Shown here: one piece after another, positions 30,292 to 34,880 of the stretch | How positions within the stretch are numbered: the first letter of the stretch is position 1 | Layout: each line of letters opens with the position of its first letter | Source: Serratia marcescens | Lineage (GTDB): Bacteria; Pseudomonadota; Gammaproteobacteria; Enterobacterales; Enterobacteriaceae | Length of the DNA stretch: 64,000 nt | Assembly (NCBI GenBank): GCA_015548865.1 | Contig: JADMXW010000018.1 | Location: 62,001-126,000, forward strand | Direction: 5' to 3' | Translations under genes and position numbers: made by a program | The notes under the pieces: generated by a model | The model's database searches: none | The model's input: only the letters and a program-made list of their open reading frames with translations | What the model was told of the DNA's origin: nothing

Positions 30292-31203
30292 ATGTTGTGG
30301 TTTAAAAATGTTATTATTTATCGCTTGAACCGCGATATAGCACTTTCCACCGACGCGCTGGAAAAACAGTTAAGTGAGTTCTCCTTTACGCCATGCGGCA
30401 GCCAGGATCTTTCTCGAACGGGTTGGGTATCCCCCATGGGTTCTCACAGCGATGCACTGACCCACAGTGTCAATGGTCAGCTACTTCTTTGCGCGCGCAA
30501 AGAAGAAAAGATGTTGCCATCTCCAGTCATTAAGCAAGCTCTTCAGGCAAAAATTGACAAGCTGGAAGCCGAGCAACATCGCAAGTTGAAAAAAACCGAA
30601 AAAGACACGCTGAAAGATGAAGTACTTCATACGCTACTCCCACGCGCATTCAGCCGTTTCAGTCAAGTATGGCTATGGATTGATACCGTCAATCAATTGA
30701 TTATGGTCGATGCCGCCAGTGCCAAAAAGGCCGAAGATACTCTGGCGTTGTTACGTAAAACACTGGGGTCGCTACCCGTAGTACCACTGGCGCTGGAAAA
30801 TCCGATTGAGCTGACACTGACTGAATGGGTACGCTCTGGCGATGTCCCCGCTGGCTTCACCCTGCAAGATGAGGCCGAATTGAAAGCCATTCTGGAAGAT
30901 GGCGGCGTGATCCGCTGTAAGAAACAAGACCTGGTGAGCGATGAAATCGCCGTGCACATTGAAAAAGGTAAAGTCGTAACCAAACTTGCTCTGGATTGGC
31001 AAGAACGGATCCAATTGGTGCTGGCAGAAGATGGCACGCTGAAACGACTGAAGTTCGCCGATACGCTGCGTGAGCAGAACGATGATATCGACAGGGAAGA
31101 TGTGGCTCAGCGCTTTGATGCCGATTTTATTCTGATGACCAGCGAACTTTCCGCATTGACAACCCATTTGGTAGAAGCGCTGGGTGGCGAAGCGCAGCGG
31201 TAA
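30292..31203 (+). CDS. rdgC: Recombination-associated protein RdgC
   Basis: RdgC is a ring-shaped DNA-binding protein that limits RecA filament activity. The 303-residue product starts [16 protein letters not shown], the family N-terminus; an in-frame ATG at 30184 would add 36 unconserved residues. [25 protein letters not shown] and GNLL-like regions of the ring-forming domain are recognisable. The length equals that of E. coli. It is divergent from mak. Confidence 0.97.
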
Positions 31204-31237
31204 ACCTCAATCAGGCAAACGGAAAATGGATTGCGCA

Positions 31238-31711
31238 ATGAGACATGAAATCCCGGTACGCTGTTTTTCTATTGCGCTTTATATACTGCGCCCAGCGCAG
31301 AGGGGTTATCAGGTGCTGCTGCTGCGCCGTAACGGTCATACCCAACCAGGCCAATGGTGCCAGATAGCCGGGGGGATTGAGGCTGGAGAAACCGCCTGGC
31401 AAACGGCGCAGCGTGAAGCCGAAGAAGAGACGGGATTACAGTTAACAGACCTCTATTCAGCAGATCGTTGCGAGCAGTTTTACGAGGCGGATAACAACGG
31501 TATTACGCTGGTGCCCGTATTTGTTACTTATGTCGCCGCTGATGTGGAGATTGTGCTCAACGCTGAACACAGCGAGTTTCAATGGGTAACATTTGAAGAA
31601 GCGGAGCAAATGTTACCCTTCCCCGGTCAGCGTGAAATGCTAAATCACATTCAACGCTACTTTGCTGAACAACAGCCACACTCCATGTTACGTATGCCGT
31701 TGGACGCTTAG
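31238..31711 (+). CDS. Nudix hydrolase
   Basis: A Nudix-fold pyrophosphohydrolase of about 157 residues. The Nudix box GX5EX7REUXEEXGU is complete in GGIEAGETAWQTAQREAEEE followed by TGL, so the metal-binding glutamates are present. The sequence before it (VLLLRRNGHTQPGQWCQIAGG) resembles NudB-like dNTP or dihydroneopterin triphosphatases, but the substrate cannot be named from sequence alone. The start is uncertain: ATGs at 31184 (inside rdgC), 31226 and 31238 are in frame. I prefer 31238 because the domain begins a few residues later. Confidence 0.85.
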   Translation: MRHEIPVRCFSIALYILRPAQRGYQVLLLRRNGHTQPGQWCQIAGGIEAGETAWQTAQREAEEETGLQLTDLYSADRCEQFYEADNNGITLVPVFVTYVAADVEIVLNAEHSEFQWVTFEEAEQMLPFPGQREMLNHIQRYFAEQQPHSMLRMPLDA

Positions 31712-32075
31712 GGCCGATTCCGACAGGTATAATTGACTCAGGCAATATAGCCCTGCATAGCGCTCAGAAAGTGGAGCATACACAGAGTACGTAAGGATGT
31801 TGAGCATCGCTTAATAGCAAAATAGCCAAAAAAATAGCGCTAATGGAACAGGTTCTTGGACGACACAATACACTTTTCATCACTCAGGTAACGGGTAGCG
31901 GTGCAGATCCTGTCTGCACCGCCTGCTAAACAAACACGCAATGGCCCATTCTCAAACCCAGCACAGGTTTGCTTTCCCCTATGAGGCATGCTACAAATAC
32001 ACCAGCGTAATATTCTTTTAATTCCGAGGAATGTGGACAAATCGCATCATTTGCGGCGGGTAATAGAGTATCATC
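31712..32075. other. Intergenic region with a strong hairpin upstream of the mdtJI leader
   Basis: No gene is recognised in these 364 bases. At 31898-31922 GCGGTGCAGA-TCCTG-TCTGCACCGC forms a perfect 10-bp stem with a 5-nt loop and no T-tract. The promoter of the mdtJI transcript should lie in the last 150 bases of the region. Confidence 0.5.
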
Positions 32076-32174
32076 ATGAAGAAAATACATAACAAAACCA
32101 TCATTACTTCTATCTACATGTTATTCCTTTCAGCAATCCTTGCGAGTGAGCACCATTGGTGTAGCGAACTTTAG
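32076..32174 (+). CDS. mdtU: Small leader ORF upstream of mdtJI (MdtU-like)
   Basis: A 32-codon ORF begins [12 protein letters not shown], continues with a hydrophobic stretch ([11 protein letters not shown]) and ends HHWCSEL. It stops 181 nt before mdtJ. In E. coli a short upstream ORF named mdtU in the mdtJI leader is needed for spermidine induction of the exporter. The position and size here agree, but I cannot compare the peptide sequence with certainty. A basic start plus a hydrophobic core may simply make it secreted or membrane-bound; a nascent-chain sensor is the more interesting reading. Confidence 0.5.
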
Positions 32175-32355
32175 GTCTCTCCCTGAATTTGGCGATAGCA
32201 GCACATTGTTATGCCTTTGTCTGCTCATGCCTTACTCCCCTTTATTTATCGCATATGGGAACAGATATCCCCGGCATCGTTGTACCTTGTTTTCATCGAC
32301 AGCATTGTCTGGTTTCACCCACATGCTACGAATCACCCTATCAGGGAGAAGAGTA

Positions 32356-32724
32356 ATGATTTACTGGATCTTTTTAGTCTGCGCGATTGCAGCAGAAATT
32401 ATCGGCACCTTAAGCATGAAATACGCCAGCATCAACGGTAGTCCGCTAGGCCATCTGGTGATGTATGGAATGATTGCGCTTTCTTACCTTTTGTTATCAA
32501 TTGCCATAAAGCGCGTTGCTCTGGGCGTGGCTTATGCCCTTTGGGAAGGTATTGGCATTCTCCTCATTACGCTGTTTAGCGTCATGCTGTTTGATGAATC
32601 TCTCTCGGTGTTAAAGGCCATCGGGCTTGCAATATTGTTGGTGGGTATCCTGCTGGTGAAGTCGGGCGTACACAAAGCCCCTGCGACCCACTCAACGCGA
32701 GGTAACCATCATGCTACCATTTGA
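32356..32724 (+). CDS. mdtJ: Spermidine exporter subunit MdtJ (SMR family)
   Basis: MdtJ and MdtI form a paired small-multidrug-resistance exporter for spermidine. The 122-residue protein has four membrane segments, the essential membrane glutamate in [15 protein letters not shown], and [21 protein letters not shown] with VMLFDESLS, close to E. coli MdtJ. The ATG at 32356 follows an AGGGAGAAG ribosome site; the longer in-frame reading from 32140 is leader sequence. It overlaps mdtI by 14 nt. Confidence 0.95.
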
Positions 32725-33040
32725 GTGGCAGCACGCTGCGTTCCTGGCATTGGCGATTGTGTTAGAGATTGCAGCCAACATTTTCCTTAAACTGTCTGAT
32801 GGCTTTCGCAATGTTTGGCTTGGTGTTTTATCGCTAATAAGCGTATTGGCCGCATTTAGCGCATTGGCGCAAGCCGTAAAGGGCATCGAGCTCACCGTCG
32901 CTTACGCGCTGTGGGGCGGGTTTGGGATAGCTGCCACAGTGGCCGCAGGGTGGATATTGTTCGGTCAGCGTCTAAACAAAAGCGGCTGGGTAGGATTGGG
33001 ACTGCTATTGCTGGGAATGGTGCTGATTAAATTGGCGTAA
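32711..33040 (+). CDS. mdtI: Spermidine exporter subunit MdtI (SMR family)
   Basis: Partner of MdtJ in polyamine export. The 109 residues equal the E. coli length, with four membrane segments and the conserved [15 protein letters not shown] (membrane glutamate) and [20 protein letters not shown]. The overlap with mdtJ indicates translational coupling, giving matched amounts of the two subunits. A strong terminator follows. Confidence 0.96.
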
Positions 33041-33044
33041 TGAA

Positions 33045-33073
33045 ATGAGCGCCTGACGGCGCTCATCGTTTTT
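33045..33073 (+). terminator. Rho-independent terminator after mdtI
   Basis: ATGAGCGCC-TGAC-GGCGCTCAT is followed by CGTTTTT. It ends the mdtJI transcript before the convergent chemoreceptor gene. Confidence 0.88.
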
Positions 33074-33089
33074 ACATCGCAGCCGTTCG

Positions 33090-34880
33090 TTATACTTTGA
33101 AGTGCCCCACCGTGGAGTGCAGCTCTTCCGTTTGTGCAAGCAGAGCTTCAGTGGCGGCCGTGGATTCCTGCACCAACGCTGCATTTTGTTGCACCATGGA
33201 ATCCAACTGTGCCATCGCCTTGTTAATCTCCTGAATACCGCGCATCTGTTCATCTGCCGCGTGGGTAATCTCCGACATTACCGTGGTTACGGTGGAAACA
33301 CCGCCGACAATCTCTTGCATAGTGCTGCTCGCCTGGCGCACTTGCGTGGAACCAGAAGTTACGCTGACCACAGTCGCTTCAATCAACGTCTTAATCTCTT
33401 TTGCCGCCTGCGCACTACGCTGTGCCAGAGCGCGAACCTCAGAAGCAACAACGGCAAAACCACGCCCTTGCTCGCCTGCTCTTGCTGCTTCCACCGCCGC
33501 ATTCAGAGCCAGAATATTCGTTTGGAAGGCGATGCCGTCAATAACGCCGATAATATCGCCAATCTTACCGGAAGCCGCGACAATATCTTCCATCGTAACA
33601 ATAACATCAGAAACCACTTTACCACCGGTGCTGGCATCGGCAGACAGGATACGCGCCTGATTATTCACATGTTGTGCAGAACTGGCCGACTCCGTGACAG
33701 CCGCCGAGATTTGCTCCAGCGAGGCTGCGGTTTGTTGAATACTTGCTGCCGCTGACTCAGTACGCACAGAAAGGTCGTTGTTGCCCAACGAGATTTCGTC
33801 CACAGCCACTTTCACTGAGGCGCTGATATCCCGAATCTGAATCATCACCATGCTGAGTTTGTCGATAAAGACGTTGAACGAACGGGCGATTTGCGCCACC
33901 TCGTCATGACCTTCGTCTGGCAAACGCTGGCTTAAATCATTAGTACCGTTGCTGATGTCATCCATCGCATCGCGTACTTGCAGCAGACGCTTAAGGGTTT
34001 TTGTGATAATAACACCCACGATCAGCGAGCCAAGCAGTGAAATAATCACCAGCGTTATCACTGACGTCGTCAGCAGCGAACGCATGCCTGCTTTAGCCTC
34101 TGCTCTGTCGAGCGCAACCAGAATATACCAGTCAGTCCCCGCAATAGGGGACGCTCGTACCATACGCTCTGCACCATTCATCTCCACGGTCACAGGATGC
34201 TGTGCTGTCAGTAATTCGCTAAGCACAATGCCCGGAGCAATATCTGCGATATTTTTCAACGTCAGATTTTCATCCGGGTGCGCAATAATCACACCGGATT
34301 TATCAATCAGTACGCCAAAGCTTGCCGGAGTGGGATTAATAGAACGCACGTTGGCGATAACATTTTCCATCGTTACATCACTGCCCAATACGCCTTTAAC
34401 GCTGGAACCAGAAACGACAGGAGAAACAAACGACACCACCAGCTTATTCGTCACCATATCAATATAAGGGGTCGTAGCCACAGGCTTACCCATCTGCACG
34501 GCCTGTTTATACCAAGGGCGTATTGTCGGGTTGTAATCAGGGGGAATACCGCCTGGATCGGCAAACTTCGCCGTGCCATCAGCATATCCCATATACACGT
34601 TCAAAAATTTCCCTGCCGATACCATCTGTTTAAACAGAGGAATCGGATCCTCATGGGTCAATACCCAGTCGTTCATAGAGGAGATCATCTGAATTTTTGA
34701 CGCTACCCAGTCACTGATTGCCATGCTGTGACTCGTGGTCACCGAATCCAGCGTGTCTTCGATAGAAGACTCATTAGCATTATTGGCAATGGTGTAATTC
34801 AGGTAGGTATTCACAGCAAGGGAAAAAACTACAATAGATGCGCATACCGCCAATATGCGCGCTCGCGTTGTTTTCAGCAT
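33090..34880 (-). CDS. Methyl-accepting chemotaxis protein with an amino-acid-type dCache sensor
   Basis: A transmembrane chemoreceptor of 596 residues: TM1 (about 7-29), periplasmic dCache_1 sensor (about 35-268), TM2 (about 270-293), HAMP (about 294-346) and the cytoplasmic signalling hairpin with the canonical tip [20 protein letters not shown]. The sensor has Tyr116, Arg121, Trp123, Tyr124, Tyr139 and Asp168 ([27 protein letters not shown]). These match the spacing of the amino-acid-binding motif of dCache receptors such as PctA, so an amino acid ligand is likely. There is no C-terminal NWETF pentapeptide (it ends HFKV), so CheR/CheB are not tethered. A FliA promoter lies upstream. Confidence 0.92.

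Follow-up and report, generated by a model that had tools for sequence, protein, structure and literature searches.

The mdtJI genes in the stretch of DNA analysed here, 64,000 nt in length and called the window below, are preceded by a leader peptide gene, mdtU, which by sequence comparison is real and conserved, and whose interest lies in the support that comparison gives to a concrete mechanism. We think it probable that spermidine causes a termination arrest at the UAG codon of mdtU, where RF1 acts, and that the arrested ribosome masks an anti-SD and frees mdtJ from both sequestration and Rho. The orthology of mdtU, selection on the C-terminus of its peptide, the fixed UAG and the covariation of SD and anti-SD all argue for this in the comparisons below.

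In Escherichia coli, mdtU is translated and its start codon is needed for the spermidine induction of mdtJ mRNA and protein; Rho terminates the mdtJI leader prematurely (Adams et al. 2021, eLife, PMC7815308). The same authors put forward a stall like that of SpeFL and remarked that a pairing with the mdtJ ribosome-binding site is predicted (PMC7815308). The 2021 work did not settle how MdtU couples spermidine to mdtJI expression; a mechanism becomes testable with the fixed UAG and the SD-matched anti-SD. In addition, mdtU is induced in mild acid (PMC10746267), and mdtJI mRNA is raised by Rof induction (PMC9765468). In the open-access literature (subscription papers and preprints being outside the scope), we found no study of MdtU arrest, of its stop codon or of the anti-SD covariation.

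In the absence of excess spermidine, ribosomes would complete MdtU and depart, the pyrimidine-rich anti-SD past the UAG would pair with the mdtJ site and prevent mdtJ translation, and the untranslated mdtJ transcript would be subject to Rho termination. With spermidine, the nascent C-terminus (SEHHWCSEL in the window, GEQHWRNAL in E. coli) would slow RF1 release at the UAG; the ribosome waiting there would cover the first 10–12 nt of the anti-SD, by which the mdtJ site would be open, translation would begin and Rho would be excluded. The action of spermidine via UAG arrest, RF1 as the inhibited factor and the masking of the anti-SD by the stalled ribosome are the elements that we infer.

The sequence-only reading had reported a 32-codon ORF 181 nt before mdtJ, proposed it as a candidate mdtU of the mdtJI leader and named its C-terminal HHWCSEL as the region to compare. 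The ORF was found as described (32076-32174, stop TAG at 32172-32174), the mdtJ ATG at 32356 lying 181 nt past its stop; synteny, length and C-terminal intermediates favour its identification, and the C-terminus was the right region to choose. The coding features are the following:

32076..32174, forward strand: mdtU leader peptide gene, 32 codons plus TAG, assigned by orthology, profile and selection
32145..32171, forward strand: conserved C-terminal segment SEHHWCSEL, a putative arrest motif (pN/pS 0.03 in the CSEL group, 34 loci)
32172..32174, forward strand: TAG stop of mdtU, an RF1-only codon (TAG in 130/131 loci)
32356..32724, forward strand: mdtJ (NCBIfam NF007767 equivalog, 156 bits versus a cut-off of 122)
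32711..33040, forward strand: mdtI (NCBIfam NF007934 equivalog, 180 bits versus a cut-off of 103)

A Nudix hydrolase gene lies ahead of mdtUJI at 31244-31711; its best NCBIfam match, dihydroneopterin triphosphate diphosphatase, is under the cut-off. The genome to which the window belongs measures 5.39 Mb, and its closest named relatives are Candidatus Symbiopectobacterium loci, with an MdtJ identity of 86–89%, suggesting that the organism is a Symbiopectobacterium-like bacterium. The segment SEHHWCSEL is the same in Serratia, Yersinia and Symbiopectobacterium loci, and a degenerate C-terminal pattern has a single match in the 5.39-Mb genome, the mdtU site itself, while the reversed control pattern has none. 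Among four intact Symbiopectobacterium orthologues, mdtU is 94% identical at the DNA level and the spacer behind it 69%, and the changes in mdtU are almost all synonymous (pS 0.24, pN 0.013); the window ORF is thus not a chance frame, and this synonymous bias suggests that it is translated. In a fifth locus, that of Candidatus Symbiopectobacterium sp. ‘North America’ (L034, 1231-1326), codon 14 of mdtU is an in-frame TAG, directly followed by an in-frame ATG from which an 18-residue peptide with the full C-terminus could be made; the anti-SD and mdtJ are retained.

The window peptide matches the MdtU profile with an E-value of 2.7e-14, being itself among the 22 profile rows, and W28 and L32 are invariant in alignment A1. 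Its identity with E. coli MdtU is 22% overall, but synteny, length (32 codons, mostly 31–38 among relatives) and a C-terminus joined through many intermediates to GEQHWRNAL indicate that the two are orthologues. E. coli MdtU (YdgV) and the window peptide share position, some 32–34 codons, the C-terminal W and L, TAG, an anti-SD past the stop and the mdtJI genes (PMC7815308 for E. coli); the E. coli gene (L001) encodes 33 aa followed by TAG, with a 106-nt spacer to mdtJ and a GEQHWRNAL end, as compared to the 181-nt spacer and SEHHWCSEL in the window, where the leader hairpin is another one. The anti-SD identified here is located 3′ of the stop. No model in NCBIfam or Pfam matches the 32-aa peptide, and Rfam gave no match up to E 5 in window positions 31650-32450 and, in the E. 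coli leader (L001, 1150-1560), only three matches, all far under the gathering scores.

The presence of mdtU here had also been taken as extending the sensor to this lineage. An orthologue is indeed present, but the spread past E. coli was already known: a 2021 paper had reported the family, its spermidine and Rho dependence and a C-terminus conserved in 17 genera or more (PMC7815308), so that the presence of MdtU in the window is not novel. For our comparisons, locus set 1 comprised 95 loci, i.e., 100 less L003, L004, L006 and L007 (same contigs as L032-L035) and L023 (a truncated mdtJ match), with 82 left after dropping identical segment pairs; these 82 served for the first anti-SD permutation and the scan. 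The 95 loci of set 1 and 36 divergent loci form an enlarged set of 131, or 117 after dropping identical pairs, from which L153 (contig end) and L161, L162 and L169 (same as L094, L050 and L105) were left out and to which the 30 profile-match loci L113-L142 were not added. A uORF ending in W-x-x-x-L-TAG occurs in 79/80 named mdtJ loci; in the exception (L073), the contig begins 157 nt before mdtJ. Among the 117 deduplicated loci, W stands at −5 in 115 and L at −1 in 113, which bears out C-terminal conservation across the uORFs of mdtJI.

We drew 295 genomes spread evenly over the GTDB family Enterobacteriaceae and screened them with a profile of 22 MdtU peptides, the window peptide included. 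The profile matches 125 genomes (63 of 154 genera) and MdtJ (E up to 1e-15) matches 145; mdtJ is present in all 125 genomes with a profile match, MdtU lying 89–392 nt upstream on the same strand. Hand reading of the other 20 mdtJ genomes revealed, in 18, a uORF that is divergent but keeps W at −5 and TAG, while the remaining two have 32-codon TAG uORFs in which W is replaced, by F in G216 or by S in G176. A uORF is therefore found ahead of mdtJ in 145/145 mdtJ genomes of the family draw. The two replacements (L182 in the normal-sized genome G216 and L180 in the 1.4-Mb genome G176) are natural tests of the need for W. In a search for MdtU away from mdtJI, part of the candidates being scored in most genomes, there was one profile match per family-draw genome, except for two in G133, both at contig ends.

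An order-wide draw of 247 genomes yielded 11 MdtU matches, of which two are outside the family, both upstream of mdtJ: G320 (SSEHHWRNAL, TAG) and G392 (AGEFLWRSSL, TAA). The MdtU of the former (L152) has 53 codons. As a negative control, 17 more distant SMR gene pairs of other families had no W-TAG uORF (0/17); two of them showed chance W...L-TGA frames. Short ORFs are common, 53 of at least 20 aa overlapping 31000-33600, and mdtU could on that ground be taken for a chance reading frame; the 145/145 occurrence, the purifying selection and the fixed stop refute this, leaving it a practically negligible probability.

Selection was estimated with Nei–Gojobori proportions, by codon segment and by clade. 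Over the last nine codons, pN/pS is 0.03 for the SEHHWCSEL (CSEL) type (34 loci), 0.05 for the CGAL type (18) and 0.29 for the E. coli type (50), and for codons −24 to −15 it is 0.42, 0.39 and 0.93, respectively. Because synonymous sites vary freely, pS remaining high (0.48–0.78), the constraint is on the C-terminus of the peptide and not on the RNA; it is concentrated next to the stop, as in a termination arrest. That MdtU serves MdtJI in trans, as a small membrane protein or an accessory one, would be consistent with the hydrophobic middle segment (12 residues) and with the western blot detection of YdgV (PMC7815308), but in the E. coli-type clade there is hardly any constraint on the N-terminal and middle parts (the value of 0.93), and stop codon and anti-SD are constrained in a way typical of cis action; we hold this role to be highly improbable. 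In four loci of one clade (L154-L157), the C-terminal residue before TAG is Arg and not Leu (LNWSTAR, LNWTNAR, LNWSAKR, LNWSAER); E. coli SpeFL likewise ends in Arg-TAG.

The stop of mdtU is TAG in 95/95 loci of set 1, where mdtJ ends in TAG in 0/95 and mdtI in 5/94 (one locus lacks a clear mdtI frame); in the window, TAG ends 4/35 ORFs of at least 150 aa. Over the 131 loci read, which are not all of the 145 mdtJ genomes, TAG occurs in 130, the exception being the TAA of G392, outside the family. UAG is read by RF1 alone, and such a stop fixed for one release factor is a feature of termination arrest. The stop of E. coli speFL is also TAG. SpeFL (E. coli b4803), the 34-aa ornithine-sensing leader of speF, resembles MdtU in heading a polyamine gene, in its UAG, in a proposed pre-release arrest and in downstream Rho control, and has been described as an inhibitor of RF1-mediated release (PMC8429421). 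The two differ in ligand, ornithine as against the reported signal spermidine; arrest by MdtU is a proposal, and we claim no sequence similarity. The operon downstream of the tryptophan-sensing leader peptide TnaC is controlled by Rho, through Rho access, and we know of no SD-matched anti-SD in that system. TnaC shares the termination-arrest logic, but it stops at UGA and inhibits RF2 (PMC8429421). A term search of the main text of the 2021 mdtU paper (PMC7815308) returned neither ‘UAG’ nor ‘RF1’. If the proposal is true, MdtU would be a second polyamine-related peptide, beside SpeFL, that blocks RF1, as well as a natural nascent-chain sensor of a polycation that itself binds ribosomes.

The sequence-only reading was right about the ORF but missed the fixed UAG, the anti-SD adjoining it and the hairpin upstream. 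The pairing partners in the window are:

32176..32186, forward strand: anti-SD TCTCTCCCTGA, pairing with 32341-32349 in the minimum-energy fold, with covariation over 117 loci
32341..32349, forward strand: mdtJ SD region TCAGGGAGA, from the fold; its duplex with the anti-SD has −20.6 kcal/mol

In both the minimum-energy and the centroid fold of the window leader, UCUCCCUGA (32178-32186) pairs with UCAGGGAGA (32341-32349); against shuffles, the gain in stability of the whole leader is only mild (z −1.30). Taking the first 22 nt past the mdtU stop as the anti-SD segment, the mean duplex of 82 loci with their own mdtJ site was −16.0 kcal/mol versus −12.8 with swapped partners, and none of 10,000 permutations was as good. 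The same holds for the 117 loci (−15.4 versus −11.8 kcal/mol with the mdtJ sites of other species; 0/10,000) and for the 36 divergent loci alone (−14.1 versus −10.2 permuted; 0/10,000). Permutations within clades reached the own score in 0 (29 loci), 0 (32), 7 (16) and 155 (5) cases per 10,000, so that the matching also holds inside the three larger clades, although all these counts overstate independence since the loci are related. Matched changes are seen in Hafnia (UUUCUCCAC/GUGGAGAGAA) and Providencia (UCUCUC/GAGAGA), and amongst the divergent loci in L177 (CUUCACAAAAC/GUUUUGUGAGG) and L160 (CCUUCUAGAU/AUCUAGAGGG).

A sliding scan of the 82 loci gave −16.0 kcal/mol exactly at the first base past the stop and about −7 elsewhere, apart from a secondary dip of −10.7 inside mdtU at about −57 (a weaker complementarity to the mdtJ SD, around −60 to −40); the single best 22-nt window lies within 6 nt of the stop in only 58/82 loci. 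This second complementarity, which in many loci spans codons about −20 to −13, might give rise to an alternative fold if the uORF were untranslated. In 111/117 loci, a whole SD-like tetramer is inside the duplex, and the median position of the first pair is +4. We also considered the C-terminal codons and the anti-SD as a single RNA constraint and dropped the idea, as synonymous sites are free and pairing begins past the stop. A ribosome holding UAG in the A site would cover about the first 10–12 nt beyond the stop. Masking +1 to +12 weakens the mean duplex from −15.4 to −4.4 kcal/mol, and that of the window from −20.6 to −3.7; part of this drop is trivial, a shorter segment having less to pair with. 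Neither of the two uORFs outside the family has a good anti-SD (−5.6 and −6.1 kcal/mol).

Alternatively, a ribosome slowed or stalled on mdtU might act on Rho alone, by hiding a Rho-loading site or supporting coupling, with the SD pairing incidental. A rho mutation strongly cuts the spermidine effect in E. coli (PMC7815308) and C exceeds G in the mdtU–mdtJ spacer of 94/117 loci, but the excess is modest (median 1.19) and such a device needs no species-matched SD and anti-SD, which are nevertheless matched even within the three larger clades. We therefore regard this explanation as rather unlikely, and prefer masking of the anti-SD by the arrested ribosome.

Upstream of mdtU, the window leader contains:

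31992..31998, forward strand: putative −10 element TACAAAT, by position relative to the E. coli TSS and by a recurring TRNTACAAAT-like sequence in related leaders
32026..32029, forward strand: conserved SD-like GAGG, 5′ of the leader hairpin, by motif conservation
32042..32056, forward strand: leader hairpin TCGCA-(TCATT)-TGCGG, ranked best among stems of the window copy; relatives show paired changes
32065..32068, forward strand: AGAG, a possible weak proximal SD of mdtU, read from the sequence

The E. coli TSS is 278 nt before mdtJ (PMC7815308), and by analogy transcription would start a few bases past the TACAAAT. This −10 element is one that we infer, because a sigma-70 consensus scan of 31900-32400 returned no promoter; no intrinsic-terminator-like site was found in the same interval. 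A GAGG/GGAG-type motif precedes the hairpin in 105/117 loci (45 nt scanned), and in 11 of the other 12 (Yersinia) a GAGG was seen by eye slightly further upstream, among the matches listed. Paired stem changes occur in relatives (TCGCAC/GTGCGG, TCACAC/GTGTGA, CCGTAC/GTACGG and TCGTG/CACGA), and the window's own leader shows no unusual stability (z −0.10).

In the E. coli-type clade, the stem ATCCGC/GCGGAT (variants ATCCAC/GTGGAT and GTCCAC/GTGGAC), with a near-constant loop GAYGAGAAGCAAY, lies between GAGG/GGAG and the mdtU ATG, and an outer stem ACAATT/AATTGT and its variants, seen by eye, spans the gap from GAGG to the start. Since none of the 53 E. coli-type loci has an SD-like tetramer near the mdtU ATG, the hairpin may bring the distant GAGG to the SD position; AGAG/GAGA occurs near the mdtU start in 24/34 loci of the CSEL clade and in 0/53 of the E. 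coli-type clade. Other clades have a stem of different sequence at the same place; the best stems of 64 loci comprise 41 distinct ones, at more than one site. The folding z averages −1.45 in the E. coli type, −1.41 in CGAL, −0.50 in CSEL and −0.33 in the others; on account of the −0.50, the evidence for a hairpin is weaker for the CSEL clade to which the window belongs. For the E. coli type, we weighed an N-terminal extension of MdtU that would begin at an in-frame ATG of the hairpin loop (MTRSNTADNCNF...) and came to prefer structured RNA, because E. coli lacks this ATG and L014 has it out of frame, although PIRT-Seq is reported to show earlier translation in the frame (PMC12350097). The PIRT-Seq data also support mdtU translation and an upstream CDS61 (PMC12350097).

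The leader RNA could itself sense spermidine, for instance by way of this hairpin, mdtU translation merely reading the state of the RNA. The paired changes across clades and the near-constant GAAGCAA loop of the E. coli-type clade, also present in L152 of another family, are coherent with such a sensor, but selection on the C-terminal peptide with free synonymous change and the fixed UAG point to the nascent chain, and the hairpin is more simply a bridge for the mdtU SD; we consider an RNA sensor quite unlikely.

The termination arrest that we favour can be put more broadly: MdtU would be a spermidine-sensing arrest peptide that needs UAG and RF1, its stall would mask a coevolved anti-SD, the mdtU SD of the E. 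coli-type clade would be positioned by the hairpin, and the same three-part device would control mdtJI in every sampled member of the GTDB Enterobacteriaceae that has the transporter, two neighbouring families having forerunners of it. To this whole we give an even chance. New here are the fixed TAG, the SD-matched anti-SD, the hairpin before the uORF, the C-terminal selection and the uORF in all mdtJ genomes. In L152 (G320), about 350 to 280 nt before mdtJ, there is an E. coli-type leader hairpin with its GAAGCAA loop and a compensatory ATCTGC/GCAGAT stem, outside the family.
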